A stretch of DNA of 57,069 nt, from positions 1 through 57,069 of the forward strand of contig JALDRC010000013.1 in the NCBI GenBank assembly GCA_031316115.1, written 5' to 3'. Below the pieces are notes generated by a model that did no database searches, had not been told where the DNA came from, and was given only the letters and a program-made list of their open reading frames with translations. Within the stretch, counting starts at the first letter, position 1. Each line of letters begins with the position of its first letter. Positions 2,696-54,780 of this stretch are shown one piece after another. Source of the stretch: Nitrososphaeraceae archaeon. Its GTDB lineage: Archaea; Thermoproteota; Nitrososphaeria; Nitrososphaerales; Nitrososphaeraceae. The translations under genes were made by a program, and so were the position numbers.

Positions 2696-4510
2696 ATGGC
2701 AAAAGTTCATGAAAGTGAATCAGAAAATGCTGAAAAAACAAGTTATTTTGATAGTAAGTTAACCAGAAGAGACTTTTTGAAACTTATAAGCTTTGGAGCT
2801 ATTTCTGTAGGAATAGCTAACGTGATTGGTATTGAAAAATTGATTCCAAAGTCATTTTCCATAAAAGATGATTATAGTAATCAATATTATTCTGAAAATA
2901 CCATACCTCGAGGAGATAGAAAAAAACAGGCATTTTATATCCGTCATAATGCTGCAAAGTTTGAAAGGGATATTTCCAGTATCCCTAACTATAATAATGG
3001 TGATGAATATCTTTACAAAAATAAAATTGCTAGTTTTTCTAAGACCCTTCCACATAACAATCTTGGAGAAGTCGATCTAAAAGCATATTCTAAATTTATT
3101 CATGCTCTAGAGACAAAGGATTTTTATTCTTTTGAGAAAATCCCTATTGGAGGATTAGCTCAATCATTTGATCTCAGAACCTTTGGAGCTAAATCCAATC
3201 ATTCAAATAATATATCATCATTTGAATATAAAAGCAGTAATCCATCTGGAAGCAATAATTATCTAAAATTAATCAATCCAATGGCGGCATTTTCTTTTGA
3301 ATTGATTGGACCTGATTCTCATAATTTATTTTTAAAACCTCCTCCGAAATTTGATGATCCAGAGACAGCAGGTGAAATAGGAGAAATATATTGGCAGGCA
3401 TTGTTAAGAGAAATTCCTTTTACGCATTATCACAATAATAATTTGGTAAAACAAGCATCTCAAGATCTTTCCAGTTTTACCAGATTTTACGGACCTAAAG
3501 ATAATGGAATAGTCACTCCAGAAACTATCTTTAGAGGAAATACAATAGGAGATATAAGAGGACCATATCTTTCTCAGTTTCTTTTAAAACCAATATCATA
3601 TGGTGCTACAAAAATAGAACAAAAGTATGCTGTGAGCTTACCTGAAAGAGATTATATGGCATCCTACCAGGCATGGTTAGCTGTACAGAATGGTATTGTA
3701 ACTGAAACAGAAAATTTGGATCCTGTTCCAAGATATATAAGAAATGGACGTGATCTGGCAGAATATGTCCACAAAGATTTCCCTTTTCAAGCCTACCTTA
3801 ATGCCTGTTTGATTTTGTTAGATTCTAAATCTCCATTTGATTTAGGTAATGTCTATTCACATTCTAAAACTCAAATTGGATTTTCAACTTTTGGAGCTCC
3901 ACATGCTATGTATCTTGTTTCAGCGGTAGCAAATTTAGCATTAAAGGCTGCATGGTTTCAAAAGTGGTTAGTCCATAGGAGATTGAGACCAGAAAAATTT
4001 GGTGGATGTATACATAACAATTTTGTTGGAAAAACATCATATCCTATTTGTAAAGAGATTTTAGACTCACCAGTATTGAATCTGATTTTTAATAAAAATA
4101 GTAGTTATTTGTTACCGTCTGCATATCCTGAAGGTTGTCCGCCTCATCCTGCATACCCGGCAGGACATGCCACTATGGCAGGTGCATGTATAACTGTGTT
4201 AAAGGCATTTTTTGATGAAAATGCAGAAATTGATAATCCGGTTATTCCTTCAACAGACGGTCAAAAACTACTATCTTATCAGGGATCAGAGAATTTGACT
4301 GTTGGCGAGGAGCTTAATAAATTGGGTTCCAATATTGGAATAGGGAGAGACTTTGCAGGCGTACATTGGAGATCTGACTGTATTGAAGGAATGAATTTAG
4401 GTGAGGAATTGGCAATAAGATTTCTAATGGAGCAAAATGATTTATTTTATGAGAGATCTACATTCAGATTGACAAAATTTAATGGGACTGTAGTTGAAAT
4501 AAAGATGTAA
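2696..4510 (+). CDS. Tat-exported vanadium-dependent haloperoxidase / PAP2-family protein
   Basis: This is 604 residues from an ATG. The N-terminus has a twin-arginine signal (LTRRDFLKLISFGAISVG, about residues 22-40), which points to export of a folded, cofactor-loaded enzyme. The C-terminal half carries the three PAP2/vanadium-haloperoxidase motifs in order: KWLVHRRLRPEKFGG (about 423-437), YPAGHATMAGA (about 486-497, catalytic His) and GRDFAGVHWRSD (about 550-561, vanadate- or phosphate-binding Arg and His). The length and the extended all-helical N-terminal part fit the haloperoxidase branch better than small PAP2 phosphatases. Family members oxidise halides with peroxide or act as acid phosphatases; sequence alone does not decide between these. 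Confidence 0.88.
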   Translation: MAKVHESESENAEKTSYFDSKLTRRDFLKLISFGAISVGIANVIGIEKLIPKSFSIKDDYSNQYYSENTIPRGDRKKQAFYIRHNAAKFERDISSIPNYNNGDEYLYKNKIASFSKTLPHNNLGEVDLKAYSKFIHALETKDFYSFEKIPIGGLAQSFDLRTFGAKSNHSNNISSFEYKSSNPSGSNNYLKLINPMAAFSFELIGPDSHNLFLKPPPKFDDPETAGEIGEIYWQALLREIPFTHYHNNNLVKQASQDLSSFTRFYGPKDNGIVTPETIFRGNTIGDIRGPYLSQFLLKPISYGATKIEQKYAVSLPERDYMASYQAWLAVQNGIVTETENLDPVPRYIRNGRDLAEYVHKDFPFQAYLNACLILLDSKSPFDLGNVYSHSKTQIGFSTFGAPHAMYLVSAVANLALKAAWFQKWLVHRRLRPEKFGGCIHNNFVGKTSYPICKEILDSPVLNLIFNKNSSYLLPSAYPEGCPPHPAYPAGHATMAGACITVLKAFFDENAEIDNPVIPSTDGQKLLSYQGSENLTVGEELNKLGSNIGIGRDFAGVHWRSDCIEGMNLGEELAIRFLMEQNDLFYERSTFRLTKFNGTVVEIKM

Positions 4511-27346: not shown

Positions 27347-27614
27347 ATATAAAAAATCTGAACATGAATCTACCCAGTCTCATTTAATTAAATTCTAAAG
27401 AAAATGATTTTGCTGCTAATTCTAATACTGATCTATATAGATGCTAGAATTTTACCCCCGATGTATTTGCTTAGTTGTTGTTTTCGCTTACTAGTAGGAG
27501 TGGCAGTAGTATTAGTAGATTCATTTCCATGTCTATTGGATTTTCCTTCTCTTTTCTACAACCAATAAATAGAATAATTACCATATTATTATACCGCAAA
27601 TCTAGAAATTCATT

Positions 27615-28622
27615 CTGGAGGGTGGGATAATAGTACGCAGATTAAACCTAATTCTATATCTTACACTCCAGTTTTTGACTCTGATAACTACTTACTGCTC
27701 ATGATAAATCTCAGAAATTTTAACATTATACAAAGTACAACGATCTATTATATTCTAAGAGATAACACTCGAACACATATCATATCAACAAACCTCAAGG
27801 AGTGGATGGAAGGATTCTTATGTACACAATATCTCCAATCATAAGATTGTTTCTACCCACTCCATTTTATCGTATTTCTAGAAAAGAATCTATTCTTTTT
27901 TGTTTTTAACTAATATAGAATATGATAATTACGTAAATATACCATATAATATAATTACAAAGTCATACCAGAAGAATATAATTTCTAATAATCTTAACAA
28001 TAATTTGTACACATGTCAATCTATAATACAATAATTAACTCACACTCGCAAATCTAAAAGCCAGAATAAGAGAAAGAATGGAAGAAAACCTTCATGATGA
28101 GAGTAGGGGCTACTAAAATTTTAGTCAACAGAACTCATTTTCTACTCTTATCAGTTTTGATTATGTAGAATTGATATGATTAATTGGTCCTCATGCTAAC
28201 AAAGATTTAACTCAAGTTTTTAAATATTGAACTAATTATAAGTAATAAATCCCAAAAACAATCACAGTGGCCTACTACTGAATAAATAAAAAGTAGGATT
28301 GAACTCGGGCAATGTATTCGGAGAGTAGAAACAGATATTCCTTTTATCACCAATCGGTTCACTTCTACTCTCAGGTTTTTATCTTAAATTATATGATAAA
28401 TATCATAATTCCCATTTTATAATAGCATATATGAGATTTTGGAAAGTATTTGAGTAGAATTCAAATTAGTTCAACTTCTACTATATTACTTTTCAATTTT
28501 TAATAACTTTTAACCTCAAGTGCTAAATAATATGAATTTCATAATTTCATACCGTACAGTGTTTCCTAGCATTGAGAGTCTTATGGTAGAACTGAATCTG
28601 AAATAAACTTCCTGTTTCTACC
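27615..28622. repeat. Series of six related hairpins in a 1.4 kb non-coding gap (27347-28748)
   Basis: The gap has no convincing coding frame but holds regularly spaced inverted repeats. (0) CTGGAGGGTGGGATA 27615-27629 with TATCTTACACTCCAG 27657-27671. (1) 24-base arms 27799-27822 and 27840-27863 (GGAGTGGATGG... with ...CTACCCACTCC). (2) TGATGAGAGTAG 28095-28106 with CTACTCTTATCA 28142-28153, enclosing the palindrome ACTAAAATTTTAGT. (3) GAGAGTAGAA 28321-28330 with TTCTACTCTC 28363-28372. (4) AGTAGAA 28453-28459 with TTCTACT 28476-28482. (5) GGTAGAAC 28585-28592 with TTTCTACC 28615-28622. Left arms share GAG-GTAGAA, right arms TTCTAC-CTC. Function unknown. Confidence 0.6.
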
Positions 28623-28748
28623 TACTCCCAATTTCTTTACTATCATATAGTGTTTTAGACTAGAGACTATAGAAACAAAAAAGTATCTAGAATTATTTGA
28701 CTAATTGATTAGTTAATTTTTGCTGCTAATATTTACTATCTCCATATA

Positions 28749-28885: not shown

Positions 28886-29088
28886 TTCCATGGATTCCCT
28901 TTTGCTTCAATGTCATAACCCCATTTATCTCGCATTATTCGTATCATACCTAAATTGGGTTGTTTTAATTCTTCTGGATGAATTCCTGAATTATGAATCC
29001 AGTATTGGTCTTCATTATCAAACTCCTTATCACAATAATAACACTTAAATGATAATTTTCTAATATTTTTATTATTATCTTTTTTCAT
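28882..29088 (-). CDS. Small C2H2-type zinc-finger protein
   Basis: This is 68 residues from ATG 29088; a GTG at 29112 would add eight residues that are not needed. FKCYYCDKEFDNEDQYWIHN then GIHPEELKQP is a single C2H2 finger (C-x2-C-x12-H-x4-H) followed by a basic/aromatic tail (MIRIMRDKWGYDIEAKGNPW). Short one-finger proteins of this kind are common in Nitrososphaeria and may bind DNA, RNA or protein. The stop codon overlaps the start of the downstream zinc-ribbon gene by four bases. Confidence 0.65.
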   Translation of the reverse strand: MKKDNNKNIRKLSFKCYYCDKEFDNEDQYWIHNSGIHPEELKQPNLGMIRIMRDKWGYDIEAKGNPWK

Positions 29089-29440: not shown

Positions 29441-29890
29441 CTATTGAATTTCTTGTTCTACTATTTTTCTTCTTAATCTATTTTCTTCATTTACTGTTAA
29501 TGCATCTACAGCTTTAAGATATTCTTGCAATAACTTGTTTTCTATTGGCCTGTAATAGTGAATATCAAGACCTAAAGATACTTTATCGCCCATTAACATT
29601 TCTTTGACGTAGTGATTCATTCCTGCTTCAATGCATTTTGAATTGAACATTTTTCTTAAGACGTGAGAATGGGGAACGGGTTGTATCGCCTTGCCGTGTG
29701 GGGTTATATGATCTTTTGAGAATATACCTGCTTTAGCTTTCTCTCGCTTTTTACATTGATTTTGGATCTATAAAAGGTTCCATTAATCGTTTGGTCAGAT
29801 GAGACTCAACCGATATCTGAGCGGTATTAATAATACGTCTTTTTGAAATGTAATCCAAACATACTATAGAGGAATTATTTTCATTTTTTT
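29441..29890 (-). pseudogene. C-terminal relic of an archaeal tyrosine recombinase (integrase)
   Basis: Reading the minus strand from about 29890: SSIVCLDYISKRRIINTAQ, ISVESHLTKRLMEPFIDPKS, then a one-base shift near 29763, IQNQCKKREKAKAGIFSKDH, ITPHGKAIQPVPHSHVLRKM. The open frame 29650-29441 follows: NHYVKEMLMGDKVSLGLDIH, YYRPIENKLLQEYLKAVDAL, TVNEENRLRRK. HVLRK is the HxxR box and HYYRP holds the nucleophilic Tyr. The N-terminal half is absent. The combination is characteristic of integrases of archaeal integrated elements. Confidence 0.7.
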
Positions 29891-29990: not shown

Positions 29991-30347
29991 TTGCGTCATT
30001 ATACTAAACTAGATAAGATTTACAACCATGAATCTAATGTAGACATTAAAGAAAGAATACAACTTGTAAGACGTATTACACTAGATAAACAACACATAGA
30101 AGATGTAGCAAAAGAATTACACAGATGTATAGCATGGGCTTACAAATGGTACAAAAGATACAACGAAAATGGATTAGAAGGATTGCAAGACCAGCAAAGA
30201 ACAGGTAGACCTCCAGATGTACCAAAAGATGTAATGGTAAAAATAAGACAAGAATTGGCAGAAAGCGATACAGGATGGGATTTTAGACAAGTGATGGATC
30301 TTATCTACAAAAAGACAGGAGTAAGATATCATGAAGTACATATATAA
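29991..30347 (+). pseudogene. IS630-type transposase, N-terminal DNA-binding part only
   Basis: This is 118 residues from a TTG: a double helix-turn-helix with HIEDVAKELHRCIAWAYKWY, KRYNENGLEGLQDQQRTGRP and a winged part RQVMDLIYKKTGVRYHEVHI, all typical of IS630/Tc1-mariner transposases. The catalytic DDE half (DEAG..., about 200 residues) is missing. The frame breaks up after 30347 (possible remnant KISCMIRKLK) and an IS5-like transposase starts at 30415. This looks like a truncated copy. Confidence 0.68.
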
Positions 30348-30414
30348 AAGATCTCTTGCATGATTAGAAAGCTTAAAGCTATATTCCTCATTTTAACACC
30401 TATTCTCTATAAAT

Positions 30415-31326
30415 TTGCTAAATTATTCCAGATTATCCAAGAAACCATTACTATTCAGATCATTTACTGGACTAGAACTATCTGAATTTGATTCCATTTG
30501 TAAACAAGTAGAATCAAGATATCCACAATATGAGATTAAACGACTATCTAAAAGGAAGAGAAAAAGAAACACAGGTGCAGGAAATCATTTCAAACTACAG
30601 ATAAGAGACAGATTTCTAATGCTTTTAGTATACTACAAACTATACATAACACATACACTTGCTGGTTTTCTGTTTGAACTAGATCAAAGCAATATACATA
30701 GAGATATACGATATATGGAACCTGTAGTTGAAAGTTGTATTCCATTACCTTCAAAGTTGTACAATATTACTAGAAGATTAAGAAATGTACAGGAAGTAGA
30801 ACTATATTTTCCAGGTTTTAAAGCATTTATCGATTGTACAGAACAGGAGATACAAAGACCCAAAAATAAAAGAAAAAGAAAAAACTATTACTCCGGCAAG
30901 AAGAAAAAAAATACAGTAAAGACACAATATATGGTCAATAAAAAAGGAGAAATACTGCATAAATCAAATAAGCACAAGAAAGGAAAACAACATGACTATT
31001 CTGTCTACAAAGACGAACATCCAATAACACCATCACAAGTAGAAAATTATTATGATCTTGGATATTATGGAATTGAAAAGGATTTTCCTGATCTTAAAGC
31101 AGTATTACCAGTAAAGAAGAAACGTAATATTGAACTTACCAAAATAGAAAAGAGATACAACAAAAAACATAGTAAACAAAGAGTAATTGTAGAACATACT
31201 ATCTGTAGGATAAAGAAATTTGATATTATGGGAAGCAGATACAGGAACAGACTAGAGAGATATGATGGAATATCTGATATTGTTTCTGGTTTGATTAATT
31301 ATAGAATAATACACAGGAAAAGATAA
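30415..31326 (+). CDS. IS5-like DDE transposase
   Basis: This is 303 residues from a TTG. The N-terminal part is a helix-turn-helix (RDRFLMLLVYYKLYITHTLA, FLFELDQSNIHRDIRYME). The DDE core follows, with first Asp in GFKAFIDCTEQEI, second Asp in YYDLGYYGIEKDF and Glu in RVIVEHTICRIKKFD, typical of the IS5/DDE_Tnp_4 group. A Lys/Arg-rich loop (RPKNKRKRKNYYSGKKKKN) binds DNA. The frame is intact, so it may be active. I could not define terminal inverted repeats. A decayed piece of a related copy lies at 42955-43035. Confidence 0.82.
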   Translation: MLNYSRLSKKPLLFRSFTGLELSEFDSICKQVESRYPQYEIKRLSKRKRKRNTGAGNHFKLQIRDRFLMLLVYYKLYITHTLAGFLFELDQSNIHRDIRYMEPVVESCIPLPSKLYNITRRLRNVQEVELYFPGFKAFIDCTEQEIQRPKNKRKRKNYYSGKKKKNTVKTQYMVNKKGEILHKSNKHKKGKQHDYSVYKDEHPITPSQVENYYDLGYYGIEKDFPDLKAVLPVKKKRNIELTKIEKRYNKKHSKQRVIVEHTICRIKKFDIMGSRYRNRLERYDGISDIVSGLINYRIIHRKR

Positions 31327-53938: not shown

Positions 53939-54780
53939 CACCTCCATTAATTTTCTTTTTATTTTAGTTTAATGATTATTACTTAGTTACTAAACTAATG
54001 ATACTTAAACTCAAATTACAAGGCAAATGTAGGTTCGTGTTGTTACCGGTATTGTAACCTTTAAACCCATATTATTTTATGAGGTCATACAGTATATTAA
54101 GGTCTAAAAAGTACAATAATATAATTCTCCAAATCCATAATATATTAGACGTTACAAAGATTGGTAAATTTGTTAAGAAGGTTGCATTATAAACTATCGA
54201 AATACAAATCTAGATAAATTATTTTCTTAATTTTTATTTATAATATGATTTCAAGTATTTATCAGATATGATGCCGTTTTTGTCCTAGCCATCCAAAGAA
54301 TTTAAGGTAAATAATTTTTTGCCAGAATTCTTAATCGATGTTTTAGTAATTGTAATAGCTTATATTCAAATTTATTACTTTCACAATCAACTTTTAAAAT
54401 TATAAATCTTTTTTTTCTATCCTTATCAATAAGATTCTCCAGAGTAAATGAGATATCGACAAACAATTTGCTATAGAAAAAATAAATGATAACAAAAAAA
54501 ATCAAATCATATTTTGGAGTCAGATAATGTAGTGAATATTTCTAGATGATAAGCATATAATACCCATAGTGTTATGATAAATAGATTCTCTTCAATTGTA
54601 TTACTGTATGGTTCATATCTATACTTGGTTTAAAATATATATTTATGATCCTTGTATATTTATTCTGATGGTAAATAGTGTTATGTGTCTATCTATTGCT
54701 AGATACTACATTTTGGATGAAACATCTGAGGATTATTCAATTTATAATTCCATCCAATTATTAATTGATGTACTTACACA
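53939..54780. other. 0.8 kb gap before the IS481-like element
   Basis: A T-rich stretch follows the stop of the secreted gene. Frames at 54302-54505 (minus) and 54596-54805 (plus) have no recognisable features, and the second runs into the element. A small hairpin GTTAC/GTAAC lies near 54042-54058. I see no gene. Confidence 0.4.

Follow-up and report, generated by a model that had tools for sequence, protein, structure and literature searches.

The window analysed here, a 57,069 nt stretch of DNA, comprises all of contig C5 in the 3.16 Mb, 20-contig genome of a Nitrososphaerales archaeon. Six related hairpins lie between positions 27615 and 28632, with 121 to 296 bp between successive starts, and no open reading frame of at least 80 aa was found between 27346 and 29991. 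In the region from 27560 to 28700, four stems had a score of at least 24, compared with a mean of 0.42 in dinucleotide shuffles, and none of 60 shuffles reached four. Thus, the proposal of the earlier note that six related hairpins are spaced through a non-coding kilobase was borne out, also by the shuffled-sequence control that it had called for. The sixth hairpin is weak and folds no better than shuffles. The features of the array are the following (folding z values are relative to shuffles; L numbers denote individual loci):

27561 to 27597, plus strand: promoter-like block of unit 1 (ACCAATAAATAGAATAATTACCATATTATTATACCGC), position weight score 36.7; match of the covariance model R1 at 27561-27680 with E 2.5e-10 in the own genome (a training sequence)
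27615 to 27671, plus strand: hairpin 1, CTGGAGGGTGGGATA / TATCTTACACTCCAG, followed by TTTTT; folding z -2.5
27799 to 27863, plus strand: hairpin 2, GGAGTGGATGGAAGGATTCTTATG / CATAAGATTGTTTCTACCCACTCC; folding z -4.9
28095 to 28153, plus strand: hairpin 3, of the "last-in-array" type, TGATGAGAGTAGGGG / TTTCTACTCTTATCA, with ACTCGCAAA upstream as in other arrays; folding z -2.0; the type also adjoins the zinc-ribbon gene in L009, L012 and L035
28230 to 28270, plus strand: variant promoter-like block of unit 4 (TTATAAGTAATAAATCCCAAAAACAATCACAGT), by sequence comparison also present in L009 and L013
28318 to 28375, plus strand: hairpin 4, TCGGAGAGTAGAA / TTCTACTCTCAGG, followed by TTTTT; folding z -2.6
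28392 to 28428, plus strand: promoter-like block of unit 5, weight score 32.6; R1 match at 28392-28505, E 1.4e-6
28439 to 28496, plus strand: hairpin 5, TTGGAAAGTA...GAGTAGAA / TTCTACTATATTACTTTTCAA, followed by TTTTT; folding z -4.1
28519 to 28555, plus strand: promoter-like block of unit 6, weight score 26.5; R1 match at 28519-28641, E 5.1e-8
28571 to 28632, plus strand: hairpin 6, the weakest, ATTGAGAGT...GGTAGAA / TTCTACCTACTCCCAAT; folding z -0.6

With Rfam 15, no family reached the gathering threshold in the window or in six array loci, and no match had E <= 1 in the window array or in loci of the three other stem families described below. ARAGORN recognised no tRNA or tmRNA in the region. 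A CRISPR array was rejected, as identical direct repeats of 24-37 nt, separated by unique spacers of similar length, are absent from the region. Another imperfect inverted repeat lies immediately upstream of the array, at 27405-27514; it is longer, with arms of 29 nt and a loop of 52 nt, and its sequence is unrelated to the six hairpins.

Two parts that the earlier note had missed define the repeated unit, namely a conserved 37-nt TATA-like block upstream of the hairpin and a T-run after it. The unit spans about 120-150 bp and consists of the TATA-like box, 25-40 nt, the hairpin and the T-run. In the aligned units of this genome, a 37-nt block of the type ACTGATAAATATTATAATTACCATAATATAATACCGC is followed, after about 15-25 nt, by the hairpin CTGGAGAGTAAGATAGTA-loop-TACTATCTTACTCTCCAG and the T-run, and the loop varies between units. 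Altogether, the unit is present about 30 times at 11-12 loci of the genome. The covariance model had 32 matches, on contigs C1, C3, C5, C12, C14 and C17, of which 24 were the units used for its training. These 24 aligned units replaced a looser collection of the GGAGAGTA family (534 "units"), which was dropped; exact k-mer detection of common arms was too strict. Within an array, nearly all model matches have the same orientation, and arrays run to nine hairpins in a row. A run of at least four T within 10 nt after the hairpin was observed for 14 of the 24 units and TTT for 18, whereas AAA was observed for none. In three families, the position of the TATA-like box peaks 50-79 nt upstream of the hairpins. 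The 37-nt block resembles the region around an archaeal TATA box, and words of the TTAAATA and TATAAAT types are weakly enriched upstream of protein genes of the same genome (9 vs 1 and 8 vs 1).

The outer 7-10 bp of the stem are common to all units of one lineage and wholly different between lineages, whereas the inner stem and the loop vary from unit to unit. Representative units fold with z values of -4 to -6. The units of this genome are not near-identical (67-89% identity over short parts); those inside one array are of distinct types, and the same order of types is seen again in other arrays. The leader word CGCAAA occurs after the TATA-like block in units of this genome (ATACCGCAAA, ACTCGCAAA) and in some units of a further genus, g6 (AACGCAAAACTCA), despite their unrelated stems. 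About 3 kb from one array, a gene for a long RTX-like protein with GNEGND repeats (~1000 aa) was found (L092, 9697-12840).

Most arrays of this genome lie directly downstream of, and convergent with, a zinc-ribbon gene (~152 aa) and a terminase (TerL) gene (~540 aa) of an integrated element. The order in this element is a tyrosine recombinase, an Arc-like RHH regulator gene adjoining the array, the array itself, the convergent zinc-ribbon gene, the TerL-like gene, which has weak PHROG matches to the terminase large subunit, a small-terminase-like gene, and further genes. The zinc-ribbon gene is present at ten places in the genome, with hairpins beside nearly all of them; none were found at C1:182 kb, and the copy on C20 has intact genes and one hairpin only. 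In the window, the array adjoins remnants of two further genes of the element:

28924 to 29046, minus strand: C-terminal zinc-finger end of the replication-like protein of the element, present as a remnant (tblastn, 41% over 41 aa, E 1.4e-5)
29456 to 29668, minus strand: tyrosine recombinase of the element, likewise a remnant (tblastn, 39% over 77 aa, E 7.9e-9)

Many arrays of this genome, including that of the window, are sited in decayed elements and may be dead. Copies of the multicopy element with genes for TerL and a TerS-like protein, the zinc-ribbon gene and the tyrosine recombinase are found at L012 (4465-6989), L034 (3553-5547), L035 (7075-8623) and L036 (7914-9311). There are at least ten copies, mostly decayed, and the parts examined contained no recognisable capsid gene. 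Beside the element remnant in the window, at 29991-31326, there are transposase fragments (HTH_32; DDE_Tnp_4 with HTH_Tnp_4), the first of which shares its family with an insertion at 2913-3161 inside the L012 element. Homologues of the TerL of this element type were present in 12 of 41 relatives. No TerL relatives were found in IMG/VR, genome_contigs or phage records, and the 18-nt unit motif was not found in IMG/VR. In the G+C-richer genomes G016, G023 and G008, no hairpin arrays were seen beside TerL, as judged by stem density only. The nearest described element is NitKor-E1 of Nitrosopumilus koreensis AR1, an integrated thaumarchaeal element with a tyrosine integrase, in which TerL and TerS are the only tailed-virus genes (PMC6563490). 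It resembles the array element in this combination of TerL/TerS and tyrosine integrase, a comparison made by description only, and the words "hairpin" and "non-coding" are absent from the main text of the paper (PMC6563490).

The homologues that the earlier note had expected in related genomes were found for the design of the unit, but not for its stem. A covariance model of the GGAGAGTA stem had no matches in 69 other genomes of the family, whereas the same design occurs, in addition to the many loci of the own genome, dozens of times in soil archaea related to it, and the stem sequence differs by lineage. In the congener G002 (JANWKP01, "Nitrososphaerales archaeon CRAIB_MAG96"), five hairpins with the stem CATAGCC/GGCTATG follow homologous TerL and zinc-ribbon genes, the latter again convergent with the array, as for nearly every array of the own genome. 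The CATAGCC stem is present on many contigs in all five congeners and in none of the 64 genomes from other genera of the archaeal family; a CATAGCC query of the own genome had no match. For most CATAGCC units, the TATA-like box is 47-68 nt upstream. A third stem, AATGAGGT/ACCTCATT, surfaced in an unbiased scan of 400 kb of the genome G024 and is present in two genomes of another genus, at three loci each; in G024, which is a complete genome, these are at 54780, 1002859 and 1554862. The fourth, CTGGTGGG/CCCACCAG, forms arrays downstream of the zinc-ribbon gene in genus g6, for example six hairpins within 850 bp at L171. This position had been predicted before the respective DNA was fetched, and the prediction was confirmed. 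The CTGGTGGG pattern was found in 12 of 12 g6 genomes, up to about 15 times in each, and once each in two of 58 others, while a reversed control pattern had no matches. For most arrays of the congeners and of the AATGAGGT genomes, genes of the element are missing from the neighbourhood. Some CATAGCC units (L083 3490-3530, L071, L108) have an additional hairpin in their leader, small and conserved (CAATCTTATA...TATAAGATTG), which lies between the TATA-like box and the main one, and in the congener G001 a gene for a collagen-like GPPG repeat protein adjoins a CATAGCC array (L083 / L075, ~2500).

Compensatory change, which the earlier note had read from the six stems, is real when measured over related units. 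For the 24 units of the own genome and 18 pairs, the covariation score was 0.288, compared with 0.202 after shuffling (0 of 500; as the units are related to one another, the shuffle numbers given here are not probabilities), and every slid register was far worse. The outer nine positions had 161 Watson-Crick cells, compared with 138 in shuffles (0 of 1000). For 63 units of the CATAGCC family, the arms of which were picked by motif and box position only, the numbers were 555 and 498 (z 5.4), and for their inner six pairs, which were unused for selection, 155 and 122. Three inner pairs of the CTGGTGGG family yielded 83 compared with 51 (0 of 2000). Double changes keep pairing in all three families tested. 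In summary, homologues and covariation are present and shuffles do not match the stems, the opposite of the three outcomes that the earlier note had named as refuting it. A preference for G-U over A-C on the plus strand was weak or missing; in the own genome, G-U cells (23 vs 28.8 shuffled) and A-C cells (17 vs 22.5) were both below shuffle. Because G-U is not clearly favoured over A-C, the pairing does not prove an RNA strand.

Small RNA genes are the simplest reading of the succession of box, hairpin and T-run, the single orientation within an array and the covariation. Archaeal small RNA genes are expected to have a promoter element at a fixed distance and a terminator, both of which the units have at the level of the consensus, as well as base-pair covariation, which is present. 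We therefore consider it probable, at roughly 60%, that small non-coding RNA genes are arrayed here in tandem, as a leftover of an integrated mobile element whose copy has decayed. More generally, the best reading is that the arrays consist of lineage-specific small hairpin RNA genes, carried by a mobile element and dispersed in chromosomes, for which we infer transcription and function. Among the three possibilities of the earlier note, the small RNA array is thus favoured, a decayed MITE is not, and sites at which a protein would recognise and bind the stem survive as the first of the alternatives.

According to this first alternative, a protein would bind the inverted repeats in their double-stranded or cruciform state, to serve replication, partition, packaging or repression, and the repeats would not be expressed. 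The depletion of both G-U and A-C in the own genome would be expected of a strand-symmetric palindrome, and RHH regulator and terminase genes neighbour the arrays. However, the loop of about 10 to 60 nt means that the spacing of the arms is not fixed, unlike the need of a dimeric site; the T-runs are one-sided; the TATA-like block at its near-fixed distance is left without a role; and the other families include arrays that have neither terminase nor RHH genes. We therefore regard unexpressed DNA sites as unlikely, while binding of a protein to the stem may contribute to the action of the RNA.

Stacked transcription terminators or insulators would fit the location of the element-copy arrays between the convergent RHH and zinc-ribbon/TerL genes, and the T-run that closes each hairpin. 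But a terminator needs neither an internal promoter-like box nor a lineage-shared stem nor a variable loop of 15-45 nt, and up to nine in succession are far beyond need, so that this explanation is improbable.

Slightly less probable still is a dispersed palindrome similar to MITEs or REPs, spread by a transposase and without a function for the cell. REP and BIME palindromes and MITEs are likewise short, dispersed, intergenic and clustered, the present units are multicopy, dispersed and genus-specific, and template switching can match the arms of quasi-palindromes without selection. In contrast to such repeats, the units have an upstream promoter-like block, so that conservation reaches 40-60 nt beyond the hairpin, and a downstream T-run; they lack near-identical copies in the own genome; distinct types recur in the same order; and in two genera with unrelated stems the arrays keep a fixed place beside one and the same gene. 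Among the families shared by the array neighbourhoods, none was recognised as Y1-type, the type of the RAYT transposases that accompany REP palindromes. A MITE was rejected because the terminal inverted repeats do not bound the copy, with the 37-nt block outside the arms and the unit continuing past them, and a decayed MITE is not favoured because units of one array differ strongly and the place of the array is fixed in an element that owns a recombinase.

Integron-like recombination sites, which fold as single strands, are very improbable: as in attC arrays, a regularly spaced row of hairpins lies near a tyrosine recombinase gene, here that of the element, but the nearly perfect stems of the own genome lack the RYYYAAC/GTTRRRY core boxes (unit alignments read by eye), the spacers contain promoter-like blocks instead of cassettes, and no recombinase is near the arrays of the other families, or at most loci.

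If the units are small RNA genes, each would be transcribed from its own TATA-like box, with a start about 25 nt downstream, and the transcript would comprise a leader of about 20-40 nt and the hairpin and end at the T-run, resulting in an RNA of about 80-100 nt. Both initiation and termination are deduced here from sequence motifs, and the positions of the transcript ends are a guess, because the unit of the best model includes loosely conserved leaders. As the outer stem is constant per lineage and the inner part unit-specific, the former could be a handle for a lineage-specific RNA-binding partner, possibly of the host, and the latter could confer the specificity of the unit; this division of function is speculative. 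Loops resembling an anti-Shine-Dalgarno sequence (CCTC) were rejected as a common function, since they are absent from the CATAGCC family. In G002, the element copy bears the stem found in the relatives of G002, not the stem of the homologous element in the own genome. On the basis of this one copy and the genus-wide distribution, the stem seems to track the lineage of the host and not the element, as would be consistent with a partner from the host; alternatively, element clades may have co-diverged. A wider proposal, that hairpin RNAs are encoded throughout this archaeal family as tandem single-hairpin genes, with the outer stem as a password for a lineage-specific partner and elements always bearing the stem of their present host, is tentative and to be regarded as doubtful. 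According to this proposal, the stem would be replaced wholesale between genera and even within a genus, and the promoter layout, the hairpin architecture and the place by the element with packaging genes would be kept.

In bacteria, small regulatory RNA genes also occur in tandem or multiple copies, for example those of the Qrr RNAs, and CsrB-type sponges contain multiple hairpins. They share with the arrays that several short structured RNAs are related, or that elements with a conserved motif are repeated. Here, however, the units are archaeal, the outer stem is conserved and not a loop motif, each unit has a promoter-like box, and the stem is swapped wholesale between lineages. A described counterpart of the arrays was found neither in Rfam nor in the literature searched, which excluded most subscription journals and preprints. 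We therefore call the arrays categorically new, as a class of sequence feature only. The same design at dozens of places, with lineage-specific stems, looks like an undescribed class of small RNA genes.

If transcribed, the arrays would amount to a large and hitherto undescribed group of small RNA genes, with up to tens in a single genome, in an archaeal family that includes soil ammonia oxidisers and for which, in the literature searched, small RNAs are almost undescribed. The exchange of the stem by lineage, with design and position kept, is unusual for any RNA family; it masks the arrays from homology searches and points to a co-adapting partner. The arrays would also link host-wide RNA arrays, again if they are transcribed, to an element that has terminase genes and no recognised capsid gene.
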